A DNA stretch of 64,000 nt from Halobacterium noricense (GTDB lineage Archaea; Halobacteriota; Halobacteria; Halobacteriales; Halobacteriaceae), in the NCBI RefSeq assembly GCF_021233435.1, contig NZ_CP089468.1, positions 1,426,001 to 1,490,000 of the forward strand, in the 5' to 3' direction. The position numbers were made by a program, and so were the translations under genes. Under the pieces are notes generated by a model. That model had not been told where the DNA came from. It did not search any database and saw only the letters and a program-made list of their open reading frames with translations. Below are positions 7,301 to 50,735 of this stretch, in pieces. Numbering within the stretch: position 1 is the first letter of the stretch; each line of letters starts with the position of its first letter.

Positions 7301-8938
7301 CACAATCTTCACCGATTGAGCTGTTGACTCAACCACACTAAACGAACTAGACCGACGAACAGAATCAACACGCGTCTGCAAATTGTCTCGATTCTGCTCC
7401 GCCCACACCGAAATCTCCGCACCATAACTGCCCGCTGGGGTACCGTCTTCAACTGTCCACTCCAGCGAAACCGATCGACGTTCACCAGCAGCCAACGTCA
7501 CCGTCCGCCCGGTCTGTCCATCGTTATCGTAGACACCACCATCCGGTCCAAGTGCGGAGTACCCGACGAAAAACGTGTGCTCTGTATTTCCCGTATTTTC
7601 TACAATCGCCGTCGCATCCACCGAACTACCACTTTGGAACTCACCCGACGCGATATCAACCGAAACGACTTCCGCGGCCACTTCCGTTTCCTCTGTCACT
7701 GAGAACTGATCCGCACGACGTACGTCGTCCAATCGCGTCCGCAAGTTATCCCGGTCACGCTCTTTCCAAACTGAAATCCGTGCATCGTAGTCCCCCGTCA
7801 CTGCAGTGCTCTGGACGGTCCACTCCAGCGAAACCGTTCGCTGTTCACCGGGCTGTAACGTGACTGTTTGTCCTGTTGCTTCGTTATTATCGTACGACTC
7901 GCTGTCAGGGCCAATCACTGAATATCCGACGAAGAATGTGTGCTCGGTGTTCCCCGTATTCTCGATGACAGCCGTCGCATCAACGGCGTCACCCGGCGTA
8001 TACTCACCTGATGCCACAGAGGCTTCCACCACTTGCGCCGAGATATCCGCCGGCTCAGTCACAGTAAACACGTTCTCCCGGTGCACGTCATCTAACCGCG
8101 TTCGCACATTGTCTCGGTCTTGCTCCGCCCACACAGAGATTCGACTACCGAATTCCCCACTCGAAACTCCGTCTTCAACGGTCCACTCAACCTGCACTGA
8201 TCGACGTTCACCGGGGTCAAGCGTGACGACTTGCCCTGTCTCACCATTATTATCGTACAGCTCACCGTTCGGGCCGACCGCCGAGTACCCCGCGAAAAAC
8301 GCATGGGATTCGTCACCAGTATTTTCAACGACTACCGTCGCATCTACCGTTTCACCGCGGTCATACGTTCCTCCATCCACAGACACATCCCGAATCGCGG
8401 CGTCAACCTCCGCTGGTTCAACCACCTCAAACGCACCATTCTGCCGAGCACTATCAAGTCGCGTCTGCAGATTATCGCGATCGCTCTCCGCCCACACAGA
8501 CGTTACAGCATCATATTCGCCAACCGGCACATCATTACTGACGGTCCAACTAACACTCACCCACTCTCGCTCGTTCGGACTAAGCGTGACCGTCGTCCCA
8601 GTCTGCCCGTCATTATCATGCCAATTCCCATTCGGGCCAACCATACTGTAGCCGACGAAAAACGTCTGGTCACTACTGCCGGTATTCCGGACTTCAACCT
8701 CAGCAGTCACGCGCTCCCCCGCTTCAAAACTCCCGGAGTCCTGATTAAAATTCAAAATCCGAGCACTCGCTGCAGCTGCCCCTACCTGTGGCTGCGCCCC
8801 TGCATGACTACCAACCGCTCGCTCAGTAGTCATACCCCCACCACGTTCGAACGAGACGGCACCAGCCACCGGTGCTGACAGGAGCAACACCACCGAAACC
8901 ACCGCAAACACCGTTCGGAATGTATCACTCAACATCAC
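4364..8938 (-). CDS. Giant secreted repeat protein with C-terminal PD-(D/E)xK-like nuclease signature
   Basis: 1524 residues. An N-terminal signal peptide, with a hydrophobic run ending near residue 27, is followed by six beta-sandwich repeats of about 118 residues (about 58-770; CARDB-like). Each repeat carries NTG, FFVGYS and WTV motifs, and five end in W-x-E-x-x-RDN-x-x-TR. Next come a further beta domain and a carboxypeptidase-regulatory-like domain (TGTVTDSNGAAI). A helical part of about 300 residues contains two Cys (SGPCAWYNSRETC) and a hydrophobic segment. The C-terminal domain (about 1355-1480) reads GGVFDLLVRK then EYIEVKNR, giving Asp1376, Glu1390 and Lys1392, the pattern of PD-(D/E)xK nucleases. 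Signal, adhesive repeats and a C-terminal nuclease is the plan of polymorphic toxins, but no immunity gene is evident on the same strand. The role as a toxin is inferred. Confidence 0.75.
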   Translation of the reverse strand: MMLSDTFRTVFAVVSVVLLLSAPVAGAVSFERGGGMTTERAVGSHAGAQPQVGAAAASARILNFNQDSGSFEAGERVTAEVEVRNTGSSDQTFFVGYSMVGPNGNWHDNDGQTGTTVTLSPNEREWVSVSWTVSNDVPVGEYDAVTSVWAESDRDNLQTRLDSARQNGAFEVVEPAEVDAAIRDVSVDGGTYDRGETVDATVVVENTGDESHAFFAGYSAVGPNGELYDNNGETGQVVTLDPGERRSVQVEWTVEDGVSSGEFGSRISVWAEQDRDNVRTRLDDVHRENVFTVTEPADISAQVVEASVASGEYTPGDAVDATAVIENTGNTEHTFFVGYSVIGPDSESYDNNEATGQTVTLQPGEQRTVSLEWTVQSTAVTGDYDARISVWKERDRDNLRTRLDDVRRADQFSVTEETEVAAEVVSVDIASGEFQSGSSVDATAIVENTGNTEHTFFVGYSALGPDGGVYDNDGQTGRTVTLAAGERRSVSLEWTVEDGTPAGSYGAEISVWAEQNRDNLQTRVDSVRRSSSFSVVESTAQSVKIVELDGASGEFQPDEEVMATAVVENTGNTEASFFVGYSVIGPEGDSYSNNDQTGTPITLGSGERRAITVEWTVPESVPSGEYYGRVSIWRETDRDNLQTRLDDAVQETAFEVVGESTSAMHVNAVDVDSGKYYEDGVVDASAVIENRGEEERTVYVSYGIPRGDSGADGVEITIGPGERRSIALSTEVSGSLSAGAYATRVAVWDSPAEQTLLTESVQSGVLTVVDSPAGSIEDMTFSSGDGEDSATVSVRLHNPTTTERSYELVPAEQSGVRIIAESPREVTLGAGELRTVSIPVSVNAEETQRTLELALAASDGTVLDSASVDASPAQTVLEVYAIDQDGDPISGVPVEPYVPDLERKATDETGLVKYTNLSGSSDALVFVENLRDRGFVTAKPTGSYTSTIEEGKRTRIIAEFERATTVTGTVTDSNGAAITDATIRVAGNGTEVPVGSNGNFELRRMESNDEYTIEVWQGADKLASIQREFVQGTQTVNFEIPDEELEGAASIRDRLSHAAANLFEDSTEAQKSQIFPENSAVVGSDPSVDRAETGPNYFMADDDTYRTSGPCAWYNSRETCKSYRMTTAEGIASSQGMVDGVSAGLQDSIEGLEALGEPVKSAKSMVNLVVTVMGDIGLLDDLIAQLPQQIQEQQRADNPHSKTHQPQQYEAYKHSWYAGYMTYLVMTSYLGTGITNYVKSSDRLADAADHLRDTSVPEVKQAVKFEASLRSGIGKAQYHVKTPGEVSARAWRDSIDQFRRNSNVPTSQLKRYLRNVKAARNTEAIQGSAGYFKDISEQGASKLTGTVLEAERAVDLANQQSVREVIVEPTDGGVFDLLVRKTDGETEYIEVKNRDPTKPALDTRKLRSELSGVQGQIRKSSVETSDGTSVATIGARKVSADLASRENLRQVLGQWLADSANPPRFDRVRIVAGSGTDRQVHTFDVEDFDITYPGAEHSRTPIQEPSIRSPQVASIAPVRSPGLG
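6631..8767 (-). repeat. Six tandem about 118-residue beta-sandwich repeats inside the large secreted protein
   Basis: Visible in the translation: six consecutive units, each with a start like SGxF/Y-x-x-G, an ENTG or RNTG turn, FFVGYSxxGP, a DN-x-x-TG turn, GERRSV followed by WTV, and, in the first five, a closing (D/N)RDN-x-x-TR-(L/V)D segment. The sixth unit is diverged and lacks the closing segment. The DNA of the units has diverged well beyond recent duplication, so this is an old protein repeat, not a simple DNA repeat. Confidence 0.8.
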
Positions 8939-9009
8939 TGAATACCGTAGTTAACCCACAATTCCGCCACACTAACAAATTTCCTACGGTCGTACTAGCC
9001 AGCTGTAAC

Positions 9010-9707
9010 GGCAGTGTTCAGATAAGGATTGAAAGGCGAGGCGGTGCGGTTTTTCGGGTGTCCATGCCAGAAAACGCCCGCCTCAGCGGTTGTTTAGACT
9101 AGATCGACTTAGAGTTTGTTGAACGAGAAGCGACACCGCAGCTGCTGATGAAGCTCAGTGTTCAACTCCATCTTGCTGGACTCTCGCTTTCGAATACTGT
9201 CTCAATTCTTGAGCTATTCGGTATCAATCGAGCTCAATCCACCGTTCATAATTGGGTCCATAAAGCCGACCTACAGCCCGAGTCTGGACGGAATCCGGAT
9301 CACGTCGGGGTTGACGAAACCGTGATCCGACTCAATAACGAGCAGTACTGGCTGTACGCTGCTGTCGATCCCGACACAAACAAATTACTCCATACGAAGC
9401 TTGAATCGACGCGTACGAACGTGATTGCTCGCTCGTTTTTCGCACAGCTCCGGGAGAAACACGACGTCGATGATGCCGTGGTTCTCGTGGATGGCGCACC
9501 CACGCTGAAAGACGCCTGCAACCGACACGGCCTCCGATTCCAGTATGAAAAACATGGGAATCGGAATGCTGTCGAACGTGTCTTTCGAGAGATAAAACGT
9601 CGAACCTCATCGTTCTCAAACTGTTTCAGCAACGCCGCAGCAGATACCGCCGACGATTGGCTCAGATCCTTCAGCTTCGCATGGAATCAGCTTATCTGAA
9701 CACTACC
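9010..9707 (+). mobile_element. IS6-type insertion sequence, copy 1
   Basis: 698 bases bounded by 17-base inverted repeats, GGCAGTGTTCAGATAAG at 9010-9026 and the complement of GGTAGTGTTCAGATAAG at 9691-9707, with one mismatch. Inside is a single transposase gene with a broken start. The flanking 8-base strings (9002-9009 and 9708-9715) do not match, so no target duplication remains. A second copy lies at 37420-38116, and a MITE using the same ends lies at 22107-22497. Confidence 0.9.
9064..9699 (+). pseudogene. IS6-family (IS240-type DDE) transposase, premature stop at codon 13
   Basis: The frame starts as MPENARLSGCLD and then hits TAG at 9100, where the copy at 37467 has CAG. Past the stop the frame is open to 9699 and could still give 183 residues from the ATG at 9148. 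Domains: an N-terminal helical DNA-binding region, then the DDE catalytic core with Asp in HVGVDET, Asp in VVLVDGAPT and Glu in AVERVFREIKRR. Without the first 28 residues the protein may or may not work. It is the only gene of the element. Confidence 0.85.
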
Positions 9708-9949
9708 GTTCTTGGAGCGCATCAACATATGTGGTTAGCCACGCTGTGTCGCCAACAGCGACAATCACAGACGAGTCAAGGACATGATGTGGTTGCGAAT
9801 TCATGGGGAGGGTGGCCAGTACCAACCACAGAATACGATTCTGTACGCGTTGATACTCTCGACCACTCACCAGACATGCAAAACCACTCCTATTTACTAT
9901 TCAACCCCGCGTTGAACTGTAGATCTCAAAAACAACCCATAGCGGAGCC

Positions 9950-9967
9950 ACGGCTTTCGCCGTGGAA
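9950..9967 (+). other. Perfect hairpin, possible remnant of an IS200/IS605-type end
   Basis: CCACGGC-TTTC-GCCGTGG forms a 7-base-pair stem with a 4-base loop. The hairpin is flanked by AGCGGAG and AAGCGG. It lies nine bases past the end of the UspA gene on the other strand, so it could also serve as that gene's terminator region, but there is no T-run. The rest of 9708-9975 contains nothing I can identify. Confidence 0.35.
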
Positions 9968-9975
9968 GCGGACAA

Positions 9976-10410
9976 CTATCGGAGGATGGTGACCGGGACG
10001 GGCGCGCGTCGAGTGACGGTTTCGGCGACGCTTCCGAACAGTACCCGACCGACGCCCGAGCGCCCACGACTCCCCATTACGATGTGGTCGATATCTTCGG
10101 CTTCGACTGTTTCGATGATCTTTGCGGCCGGCTTTCCTGTTTCAAGTCTGGTTTCGAAATCGACGCCGCGCTCGCTCGCCGTCTCACCGTATTCTCCGAG
10201 TAGTTGCTCGGCGTGCTCGTGCTGTCGCTTCGCTTCCGCTTGATACCCTTCGAAGTCGAAGTATTCGTCGTCGCCGTAAGTGTACGTGCTCGCGGGATTG
10301 AGGACGTGGAGCAGCAGCACCTGCGCGTCGGGGTGGTTGTCCAGCACGTAGTCGAGCGCTGCCTCTGATTGCGGTGACCCATCGACTGGCACGAGGATAC
10401 GTCGGCTCAT
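9976..10410 (-). CDS. UspA-family universal stress protein
   Basis: 144 residues, the normal single-domain length. It starts MSRRILVPVDGSPQSEAA, with the family's first strand and the Asp used in nucleotide binding. It carries the ATP-binding signature GSRGRSGVGRVLFGSVAE (G-x2-G-x9-G-S) and ends in PVPVTILR. Members are cytoplasmic ATP-binding proteins that accumulate under stress; a specific partner cannot be read here. The upstream region holds a short remnant of another gene, so this UspA may once have been paired with a transporter. Confidence 0.9.
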   Translation of the reverse strand: MSRRILVPVDGSPQSEAALDYVLDNHPDAQVLLLHVLNPASTYTYGDDEYFDFEGYQAEAKRQHEHAEQLLGEYGETASERGVDFETRLETGKPAAKIIETVEAEDIDHIVMGSRGRSGVGRVLFGSVAETVTRRAPVPVTILR

Positions 10411-10440
10411 ACTGACCAGTGACTCGGGACACGCATAAGT

Positions 10441-10530
10441 GCTAACCTCTGTTTAGCGCCCGTTCTATCCGAGTACGGTCTGTTCCGAAGAACACGGCTA
10501 TCAGCGGCTCACTGATGAGCGCGAGCGGAA
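10441..10530 (-). pseudogene. C-terminal scrap of a membrane protein gene
   Basis: Reading the minus strand just upstream of the UspA gene gives FCIIPLALISEPLIAVFF followed by TDRTRIERALN and a stop. Immediately before this the frame is closed by a stop codon. The hydrophobic run followed by a charged tail looks like the last helix and tail of a transporter. It is too short to name, and it may be chance. Confidence 0.3.
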
Positions 10531-10718
10531 TGATGCAGAATCAAGCGATACCGACTGTGGCATACTCGATAGCTGCTATCCGGGTACCGTCGATAGCTAC
10601 TGCATAACTGGGCTGACGACCCCGTAGTTCTGACATCGAAGGGGTCGTAACCTCTACGAGACTTCGGATACTGAGTTTCTGGTATGGTGTCAAAGCCTCC
10701 ACTTCGACAGCATTAGCC

Positions 10719-11174
10719 GTGATTGGCGTTCTCTCGCTGATCGCCTCGATGATTCCCGTGGGGGCGTCGTCCGAGCCAGTCGAGTTCGTCCACCGTGTCG
10801 ATCCCGCCGATAACGGAACGCTGGCATACGGAATCGAGTACGAGACGAGCGACGTTCGGGCGTACGAAAATCTCTCCGAGCGCGGGCAGACCGTCTTCGA
10901 CCGTGCTCGTGCTGGGTCACCGTACGTGGTCACGAATCAGTCCGCAACTGCGCCAGACTTCGAGTACGCGACTGATCACGTCGCCCTCGGGGAAGGTGTG
11001 TACGCTATTGCGTACGAGGACGAGGTGTACTCGTTACACACCCAGCGCGACGCCCCCGGATTCAACATCGCTGCCTCCCTCGCCGAGCTCGCTACTGTCG
11101 CCGCCCGCGTCCTCAGTGCCATCTTCATCGCAGCCGGACTGCTCTACGCCGGCTGGCAACAATACAGCCAGTGA
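10719..11174 (+). CDS. Small two-helix membrane protein of unknown function
   Basis: About 151 residues from a GTG start; the frame is open further upstream without an ATG, so the start is uncertain. There is an N-terminal hydrophobic segment (VIGVLSLIASMIPV), then a soluble domain of about 90 residues rich in Glu and Asp. A C-terminal helix, VAARVLSAIFIAAGLLYAGW, follows. This suggests an extracytoplasmic domain held by helices at both ends. The sequence does not match a family whose function I know. It stands alone between the two UspA genes. Confidence 0.6.
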   Translation: MIGVLSLIASMIPVGASSEPVEFVHRVDPADNGTLAYGIEYETSDVRAYENLSERGQTVFDRARAGSPYVVTNQSATAPDFEYATDHVALGEGVYAIAYEDEVYSLHTQRDAPGFNIAASLAELATVAARVLSAIFIAAGLLYAGWQQYSQ

Positions 11175-11963
11175 TTCACCCTGGCGGGCTGGCTGTTCGA
11201 GTTTGTCTGCAGGCTGATATCTGGATTGGGATGATATTTCGGCAGAATCGGTGCGAAGTCGATCAATAGGTACGAGATTAGTTCGTGCTCTCGGTTGCTG
11301 TCGTCTCACCGTCGACGGTGCTGGTGACTTCTGACTGTCCTGCCGGCGTCCGGATGACGTTCGGAGAGCAGTCATTCTCCGACTCTTGCGTCCGCGTCGA
11401 GGGTGTGGTACCGAAACCGGAATTCAGCGACCCCTGTACAGAAGCACTACAGCGCCTGGAGAAATAGTTTGTAAAATGTTCATTTCTAACTCCAACCAAA
11501 TATACTATGGTAAAAGTGATTCCGGAATAGCATACTCCTATTTCGAGCCAGAAGGTTTAACGACGAAATACATCCGATATGATATCCATGGATTATCGAT
11601 GATCCCGCCTCCTATTGGTTTTAAAGAGTATATTCGTCCTTCAACGGTCCTGGTTGCATCTCTACAATTCCTCATCTGCTTACTAAAATATACCCCACCC
11701 AAGAAATTATATTTTCTGAACTGGTGCCTTATTAATTTCCCTTTTCTACAGTATTACCCATTATTTTGACGTTATACTGTAGAATTACCTCTCTAGTCGA
11801 GGTTCTATGGAACTGTCTCTTGTGAGTATACACTCCCCCCACAAACCAATATCAGACATATCTTTGATATGACTATCTTATTGATGGTTCTCGTGTTTCG
11901 GTGTCTTCGCGCGGCAAATCGGTTGAAGCGTGCTACAAATTTTAAGATGGAGCAGTCTGATTC
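11175..11963. other. Intergenic stretch with a marked AT-rich core
   Basis: About 790 bases without a credible gene. From about 11470 to 11950 the base composition drops sharply in GC compared with the surroundings (runs such as AAATTATATTTT). A frame from about 11476 to 11769 encodes roughly 97 residues with many Tyr, Phe and Ile, unlike the acidic proteins around it, and probably does not represent a gene. A 60-codon frame at 11285-11467 is also unsupported. The AT-rich block may be foreign DNA or a decayed region. Confidence 0.45.
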
Positions 11964-45713: not shown

Positions 45714-47258
45714 CTAGAAGTCCATGATGCCGCGGTACAGTTCCTCGACCGTCAGGTGGTCGTTCGCGGCTTGCCGTTTCGTCTGCCGGTAGAACCGGTC
45801 GCGCTCGTCGACGACGTCGTCGCTCACTTCGAAGTCGTTCGTCTCGTAGAACTCCGAGGTCGCGCCCATGTTACGCATGACCGTGTAGAAGTCGGGGAGC
45901 GCGAAGACCTTGAGCTCCGCGAGGTGGGAGGCGTCCTCGACGTCGACGTTCCAGTTGTAGCCGTACCGGTCGAACTCCTCGGTAATCTGGTCGATACGTG
46001 GGCTGACGTCCAGCGACTGCATCGCCTCCCAGAACTCCGTGTCGCCCGAGGCGTACTCGTAGTGGATGCCGATGAAGTCGTGGATGGACTCCCAGGTACG
46101 GCGGACCGACGCGTTGAATGCGTCCCGAATCGCGTCGTCGACGACTCGGCCGTGCGAGGACAACAGATTCGAGAACTGCACCGCGAGCGAGGCGTTGGCG
46201 GTGAGCGCGGTCGACTGCAACGGCTCGACGAACCCCTCGGCGTTCCCGATGGTCAGACAGTTAGCTACCCACGCCCGGTCGTAGTACCCGGACTCGAAGT
46301 CGTACCTGTCGACGTCCGCCTCCGCGACGTCTGCCCCACTCCTAGCGCCCGTGGGGGACACTTCGGTGATGAACTCACGGAACTCGGTCATGGCGGTCTC
46401 CTCGTCGACGTACTCGGAGGCGAATACGTACCCGAGGTCGCGGTCGTCGTAGGTGTCGATTTGCCAGAACCACCCGTGGTCGCCCGTCTCGATGACGGTT
46501 GCGGGGACGACGTCCGACAGCGGCCGGTCGATGCGGACGTTGAGCGCCGCGTCGAGTGGGAACTCGAACTCGCGGAATTCGACGTCCTGCTCGCGCCGGA
46601 GGACACGGTTGAACCCCGTCGCGTCGACGTAGAGGTCCGCGTCGTACCGGTGTTGGGTGCTGCGGACACCGTCGATTCGCTGGCCGGTCGTCTCGACGGC
46701 GGTGATTTCGTCGTCGACGAGCGAGATGTCGCGGGAGTGGCAGAGTTTCCGGAGGAACGTGTTGAACCGTTTCGTGTCGAGGTGGTAGGCGACCTTGTCG
46801 TATCTGTCGAGGTCGCCGTCGGGCCCGTAGTACCACGGCGACTTGCCCTGCGCGACGATTTGCTCGTCCCGCGTCAGGTGGTCGGGGCTGTCGTAGAGCT
46901 CGTCGTAGTGGTGGTAGTAGTGTTCGACGGCGTTGGGCGTGTCCGCGTTGGGGTACTTGTCCGGCGGGTCGAAGGGGTACTGGAAGGACGGCCGGTCACA
47001 CCAGTCGCGGAAGAACACCGACGCCTTCCAGATCGGCTTCACCTCCGAGATGAACTGGTGTTCGTCGATGTCGAGCGAGCCGTGGAGGATGTTCTGAATC
47101 TCCCGGTACGTGCTCTTGCCGACCTGCGGGATCTCCTGCCGGAAGTCGTCGACGACCGAGACGTCCACGTCCGGGTTCATCTGGCGGATGCTGAGCGCGG
47201 TCAGCAGTCCGACGTCGCCGCCGCCCACGATAGCTACGCTGTCTACGTTCCCGTCCAT
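45714..47258 (-). CDS. Flavin-dependent (tryptophan-halogenase-like) halogenase
   Basis: 514 residues from the ATG at 47258. The FAD-binding start is VDSVAIVGGGDVGLLTALS. Lys78 (in PIWKASVFF) stands where the chlorinating Lys79 of PrnA is. The halogenase signature W-x-W-x-I is WFWQID (263-268). Glu345 in EGFVEPLQST matches the catalytic Glu346 of PrnA. So the full catalytic set for halogenation is present; this is stronger than a mere FAD monooxygenase match. The substrate is unknown and no flavin reductase or biosynthetic partners are adjacent. TTATTATT about 60 bases upstream may be its promoter. Confidence 0.85.
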   Translation of the reverse strand: MDGNVDSVAIVGGGDVGLLTALSIRQMNPDVDVSVVDDFRQEIPQVGKSTYREIQNILHGSLDIDEHQFISEVKPIWKASVFFRDWCDRPSFQYPFDPPDKYPNADTPNAVEHYYHHYDELYDSPDHLTRDEQIVAQGKSPWYYGPDGDLDRYDKVAYHLDTKRFNTFLRKLCHSRDISLVDDEITAVETTGQRIDGVRSTQHRYDADLYVDATGFNRVLRREQDVEFREFEFPLDAALNVRIDRPLSDVVPATVIETGDHGWFWQIDTYDDRDLGYVFASEYVDEETAMTEFREFITEVSPTGARSGADVAEADVDRYDFESGYYDRAWVANCLTIGNAEGFVEPLQSTALTANASLAVQFSNLLSSHGRVVDDAIRDAFNASVRRTWESIHDFIGIHYEYASGDTEFWEAMQSLDVSPRIDQITEEFDRYGYNWNVDVEDASHLAELKVFALPDFYTVMRNMGATSEFYETNDFEVSDDVVDERDRFYRQTKRQAANDHLTVEELYRGIMDF

Positions 47259-47402
47259 CGTTGTCAACAACCGCGTCGTTGGGGACAATAGCTTCGACGG
47301 TTGTATTCACGTTCTAATTGTTGTCAATAATAATCCGGGGTGTGTACTGAGACATTCGCCGTCGATAACAGGGATTATTGGAATGGAACGACTCGTTCCA
47401 CT

Positions 47403-49955: not shown

Positions 49956-50735
49956 TCAGCCGCGGGCGGAGTTCGTGGTTCCCGGGCCGGTCGAGCGTTC
50001 GAGACTAACGGCTTCCCGCGTCCGCGCGACCGCCGTCAACACCGGGTACGTCCACGGTTCGTCATCGTAGAGGTACGTACACAGGGAGTGCTCGTCGAAG
50101 CGGGGAACAGAGTCCCGTCGCTGAATCGTCTGCTGGCGGCACTGCGCGACGGCGTCGAGCTGTTCCGTGAACGACTCACAGTGCCAGTCCGGAATTATCG
50201 TCGTGTCCAGCGCGGCGAAGACGTCCTCGAGGTCCGTCCGCGCCGACTCAAGTGACCGCGCTTCCCTCTGGAGCGTTGCAAGGAAGTGCTCGCGTCTGCG
50301 CACGGCTTCCGCCGCTGCCCCCACGAGCGCGTGCTTGTACGCCGCAGTGAACGACACCGACGACTCGGGCCGAACGCCCTCAGCGACTTCCGGGCCGAAC
50401 TCGCCGGCGAGGTGCTCCGCGAGCGACTCGTCGTACGCGTCGTCGTAGTGTGGCATGCTCAGGACGGTCTCGCGGTAGGCAGTACGAACGCAGTCGACCC
50501 TGTCGGTCGTCGACGCGCGATTCGCGATTCGCGTCGCCCGGTCCGGTGGGGTCGACGGTGCCGGGTCGATGCCCTCCAGGCGCTCGCGGAACGCCTCGAA
50601 TGCGTCCTGTTCGGCGTTCACTTCGGCACGCTCCCGTTCGAGGCGGCGCTCGGCCGTCGACAGCGGCGCGAGCACGTGCTGCTGGAGGGAGTGCACGAAG
50701 TACTGCGGGTTCCGTTCGCTGCCCGTGTTGCTCAT
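49956..50735 (-). CDS. DUF7260-like haloarchaeal protein, second copy
   Basis: 259 residues (MSNTGSERNPQYFVHSLQQH). It follows the plan of the protein at 12466-13239: APLSTAERRLERERAE near the start, VRTAYRETVLSMPHYDDAYDE in the middle and SLCTYLYDDEPWTYPVLTAV at the end. It is soluble, helical and acidic, with no catalytic pattern I recognise. The two loci share no neighbours except that both are on the minus strand with an AT-rich promoter (TTTTTGTGCTATG). Function unknown. Confidence 0.7.
   Translation of the reverse strand: MSNTGSERNPQYFVHSLQQHVLAPLSTAERRLERERAEVNAEQDAFEAFRERLEGIDPAPSTPPDRATRIANRASTTDRVDCVRTAYRETVLSMPHYDDAYDESLAEHLAGEFGPEVAEGVRPESSVSFTAAYKHALVGAAAEAVRRREHFLATLQREARSLESARTDLEDVFAALDTTIIPDWHCESFTEQLDAVAQCRQQTIQRRDSVPRFDEHSLCTYLYDDEPWTYPVLTAVARTREAVSLERSTGPGTTNSARG

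Follow-up and report, generated by a model that had tools for sequence, protein, structure and literature searches.

A PF04820-fold flavin enzyme homologue with glutamine at the catalytic glutamate position in Halobacterium noricense and other haloarchaea

The DNA analysed here (the window) is a stretch of 64,000 nucleotides from Halobacterium noricense (assembly GCF_021233435.1, contig NZ_CP089468.1, positions 1,426,001 to 1,490,000 of the forward strand). Its minus strand contains an intact open reading frame, at the position claimed in an initial annotation of this DNA, encoding a 514-residue homologue of the flavin-dependent halogenases. The coding sequence and a short element upstream of it are as follows.

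45714..47258, minus strand: coding sequence of the halogenase homologue, 514 aa, intact open reading frame, PF04820 (Trp_halogenase), Gln at the catalytic Glu position
47283..47302, minus strand: upstream element AACCGTCGAAGCTATTGTCC, common to five orthologues from three families, the flanking DNA having diverged

The AACCGTCGAAGCTATTGTCC element has no second exact match elsewhere in the genome and is likely to be a promoter or operator. Directly upstream of the start codon (window 47258-47330, minus strand) TTGACAAC occurs twice, the two copies being about 60 bp apart; these repeats are absent from the other orthologues examined.

The protein matches the PF04820 profile with E = 6.1e-67 and 226.9 bits, against a curated cut-off of 21, and is the sole strong PF04820 match in its own genome. 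In the ranking of PDB sequences MibH came first (1e-42) and VirX1 second, followed by the tryptophan halogenases, and the MibH match rose to 2e-63 when a profile of the haloarchaeal clade was used as the query. The AlphaFold2 model has a mean pLDDT of 91.6 and matches solved tryptophan halogenases with Z of 36-41 over about 475 residues (AbeH/PyrH: Z 40.8, 2.4 Å over 477 residues), falling to Z 28 for the next subgroup, CndH. Membership of the PF04820 family and the tryptophan-halogenase fold are secure on the strength of the profile match, the PDB matches, the model confidence and the gap in Z down to CndH, and the earlier assignment of a halogenase-family protein to a haloarchaeon is confirmed (PF04820 E = 6e-67, fold Z about 40). 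Membership of a non-halogenase monooxygenase family was rejected, as the NCBIfam matches to QhpG and LodB were far under their cut-offs.

The haloarchaeal sequences form one monophyletic clade (support 100/100), which was found in 19 of 391 Halobacteria genomes, including the congeneric G353. A copy is carried by Halobacterium sp. CBA1126, of the same genus. Other PF04820 lineages were not detected in the 391 genomes, a phylum-wide sample gave haloarchaeal matches only, and a search for a viral carrier of the clade produced no match. Phylogeny had been suggested as a check for placement inside FAD monooxygenases lacking halogenase activity; the clade falls instead among the PF04820 halogenases, on a branch with MibH (98/95, and 99/93 after removal of the longest other branches), a sisterhood that is tentative because the branches are long. 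Two copies are located on plasmids. The orthologue of G247 (L040, about 8584-11717) is interrupted: its N-terminal 55 residues are encoded about 1.6 kb away from the remainder, and an IS66-family transposase gene is found between the two parts on the opposite strand. On account of its presence in 19/391 genomes, the plasmid copies and the IS66-split copy, the gene is regarded as patchy and dispensable. The dN/dS ratio against four orthologues was about 0.2-0.3, indicating purifying selection, which argues for a working protein.

The yardstick for residue assignment was the halogenase L058, a PrnA homologue of 538 residues, as in PrnA, from a Burkholderia pyrrocinia plasmid locus in which it is annotated next to PrnB. 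Residues were counted in 24 haloarchaeal sequences and in 94 homologues from plasmids, phages, viruses and the PDB. The viral homologues were drawn with a pattern permitting either Glu or Gln at the Glu346 position, and so the absence of Gln from the viral set is not a selection artefact. The codons of interest are listed below.

47115..47117, minus strand: Lys48 (PrnA Glu49, VGEAT/VGEST motif), by alignment
47025..47027, minus strand: Lys78 (PrnA Lys79, the catalytic Lys), by alignment; Lys in 24/24 haloarchaeal sequences
46455..46472, minus strand: W263-F-W-Q-I-D268; WxWxI conserved, with Asp in place of the optional Pro in 24/24
46224..46226, minus strand: Glu345 (PrnA Glu343), by alignment; the catalytic Glu of the initial annotation
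46215..46217, minus strand: Gln348 (PrnA Glu346, the catalytic Glu), by alignment; Gln in 24/24 haloarchaeal sequences

The protein had been credited with a full catalytic set, and this holds only in part. Lys78 aligns with PrnA Lys79, as proposed, and the W-x-W-x-I signature is present at W263-x-W265-x-I267, but the set lacks its catalytic Glu, because the residue aligned to PrnA Glu346 is Gln348. Glu345, previously named as the catalytic residue, is ruled out, since its partner in the alignment is PrnA Glu343 (the E in E-P-L) and not Glu346 (the E in E-S-T). Loss of Lys78 or Glu345 in close relatives was looked for and both are kept, yet Glu345 was the wrong residue to check. Of the 94 non-haloarchaeal homologues, 90 have Glu at the Glu346 position, the other four having Asp, Ala, Gly and Asn there, and Gln occurs in none. 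The Glu49 position is covered by 23 of the 24 haloarchaeal sequences, of which 20 have Lys there and three have Gln; it is Glu in 93/94 plasmid, phage, viral and PDB homologues, and the Pro after WxWxI is kept in 92/94. None of the 24 haloarchaeal sequences lacks Trp263, Trp265, Ile267 or Asp268 (PrnA Pro277). GGGDVG, the first glycine motif, is as reported earlier; it occupies residues 12-17 and still satisfies GxGxxG, with Asp15 specific to the clade. The Fx.Px.Sx.G tunnel motif retains F343, P346 and S349, and its last Gly (PrnA Gly349, Ala351 here) is Ala in 15, Gly in six and Ser in three of the haloarchaeal sequences. The PrnA tryptophan contacts Y443, Y444, E450, F454 and N459 are absent or variable in the clade, in a gapped alignment in which single positions are uncertain.

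The K79A substitution abolishes the PrnA reaction and E346Q slows it about 100-fold (PMC5727139), and in simulations deprotonated Glu346 holds HOCl, orients tryptophan and deprotonates the intermediate (PMC9764358). By alignment, the active site of the haloarchaeal clade is a natural equivalent of PrnA E346Q in which the Glu49 position is altered as well, and the catalytic Glu that defines the PrnA/RebH-type tryptophan halogenases is, at the level of sequence, replaced by Gln348 throughout the clade (24/24).

The gene in the window adjoins genes for an FKBP-type prolyl isomerase, a solute-binding protein and a PAS/GAF/HTH_10 regulator, and across lineages the neighbours vary (FKBP, tRNA ligase, primase, chaperonin, tRNA-splicing endonuclease). 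No conserved operon or RiPP cluster was found among the relatives when open reading frames of at least 60-70 aa were compared, a size above that of a very small precursor peptide, which would escape. Neither of the flavin reductase families PF01613 and PF03358 was found in the genome of the window, and 12 of the 19 carrier genomes have no PF01613 match; the idea of a dedicated partner from these two families was dropped. The description of the gene as an orphan, with no biosynthetic cluster or flavin reductase nearby, is upheld, and no pathway common to the relatives was seen.

Several associations were spotted post hoc and are not counted as functional evidence. A DUF7260 gene adjoins the halogenase homologue or lies within about 3 kb of it (window 49956-50735; L031, L029, L048 and L049) in the genus of the window and in G282/G138; genomes carry about 2-8 DUF7260 genes and the proximity may be due to chance. 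In G136 and G261, which belong to one genus, the gene is preceded on the same strand, with a gap of about 145 bp, by an open reading frame (L034 7236-9080, L036 7096-9012) whose product, an F420-hydrogenase beta-type FrhB/FdhB 4Fe-4S flavoprotein, is a possible electron donor. In three lineages the gene and a glycoside hydrolase gene face each other tail-to-tail (L048 11584-13647, GH42; L027 9553-11754, GH3; L042 5909-9145, GH2). Elsewhere, in Halosimplex salinum a 2Fe-2S ferredoxin gene (L028 7100-7678) precedes the gene by about 0.3 kb on the same strand, open reading frames with similar N-termini are also found upstream in H. aquaticum and G161, and the bacterial PF04820 genes L052, L053 and L057 adjoin TonB-dependent receptors, two of them also being near glycosyl hydrolases.

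The literature on archaeal halogenases, covered in full text for open-licence papers, yielded no characterised haloarchaeal member and no activity data for the clade. The protein is not classed as a tryptophan halogenase, because the defining residue, the catalytic Glu, was tested for and Gln was found. The preferred reading, which we would as readily believe as doubt, is that of an orphan, stand-alone flavin enzyme of PF04820 fold, belonging to a haloarchaeal clade that is monophyletic and has a re-wired active site, and halogenating via HOX and Lys78. The haloarchaeal cytoplasm has a very high chloride content. Reduced FAD (FADH2), obtained from some reductase, would react with O2 and, in the FAD pocket, with the abundant intracellular chloride (or bromide), yielding HOX, which would pass along the internal tunnel of the family to Lys78. 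This residue would either activate HOX or become haloaminated and transfer X+ to an electron-rich substrate. In PrnA a Glu positions HOCl and tryptophan and takes the proton from the Wheland intermediate, and Gln348 stands in its place here. Deprotonation would therefore have to be carried out by water or some other group, unless the substrate is activated enough to proceed without it. The substrate is probably something other than free tryptophan, since the PrnA tryptophan contacts are not conserved. Halogenation by the 514-residue protein is plausible on present sequence evidence, and about an even bet: Lys78, the counterpart of the residue whose mutation kills PrnA, is found in 24/24 sequences, as are Trp263, Trp265 and Ile267 of WxWxI, and on the other side are the absence of PF01613 and PF03358 from the genome and of any visible substrate gene cluster.

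The clade-wide replacement of the Glu346 and Glu49 equivalents, with Asp for the Pro of WxWxIP, means that the haloarchaeal proteins may carry out a different flavin chemistry. It is somewhat unlikely that the clade has lost halogenation and consists of flavin monooxygenases, oxidases or other redox enzymes built on a halogenase fold, with Lys78, Gln348, Lys48 and Asp268 serving a new reaction. Such a reading is favoured by the catalytic Glu being missing without exception, by E49K, by the Pro-to-Asp change and the Asp in the FAD glycine motif, and by the use of halogenase-like folds in hydroxylases such as QhpG (a weak match here), whereas the equivalent of Lys79, essential for halogenation, is kept in 24/24, and the likewise invariant WxWxI has been proposed to prevent monooxygenation (PMC5945002, PMC12871659). 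An improbable alternative is that the enzyme produces hypohalite or protein haloamines in an oxidative or antimicrobial role, in place of halogenating one metabolite, and that Lys48 and Lys78 could both be close to the tunnel end; an orphan gene without a common pathway, the additional Lys at the Glu49 position and the chloride level of the haloarchaeal cytoplasm would suit such an enzyme, but neither a secretion signal nor an oxidative-stress partner was seen. That the protein is an ordinary tryptophan halogenase tolerating the Glu-to-Gln change, as the records of the Halalkalicoccus and Haloarcula marina copies, labelled 'tryptophan 7-halogenase', would have it, is very improbable in view of the roughly 100-fold cost of E346Q to PrnA (PMC5727139) and the missing free-tryptophan contact residues.

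Whether Lys alone is sufficient, as a haloamine or by hydrogen-bonding HOX, is a mechanistic question in flavin halogenases that is usually probed via damaged mutants, and here an entire clade combines Glu-to-Gln with E49K under purifying selection in chloride-filled cells. It is possible, if rather doubtful, that these are active halogenases without the catalytic Glu, relying on Lys78 (perhaps with Lys48) and near-saturating chloride and acting on a non-tryptophan substrate, in which case the protein could become the first characterised archaeal flavin halogenase. If active, the clade would provide a natural separation of the roles of Lys and Glu; if inactive as halogenases, its members would reveal other uses of the fold. 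Haloarchaeal genes that carry an automatic 'tryptophan 7-halogenase' label are probably misnamed.

Among known systems, the best sequence and Foldseek match is MibH (PDB 5UAO), a tryptophan 5-halogenase acting on a lanthipeptide, which shares with the haloarchaeal clade PxWK at the catalytic Lys and GN ahead of the third motif. MibH differs from the 514-residue protein, to which it is about 24-26% identical, in having the catalytic Glu, VGEAT and WxWxIP, and its peptide gene cluster was not seen around the haloarchaeal gene. VirX1 (PDB 6QGM) and the cyanophage and viral PF04820 proteins keep the catalytic Glu and VGEST and form a separate branch of the tree. PyrH E46Q (PDB 2WES) is a laboratory mutant whose altered strap Glu probably corresponds to PrnA Glu49, the two being equated by numbering only; it has Gln at a position that is Lys in 20/23 of the covered haloarchaeal sequences and Gln in three. 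PrnA, a tryptophan 7-halogenase, resembles the 514-residue protein in its fold, GxGxxG, Lys79 (Lys78 here), WxWxI, S347 and T348, and differs from it at E346 (Q348), E49 (K48), P277 (D268), G349 (A351) and the tryptophan contacts.
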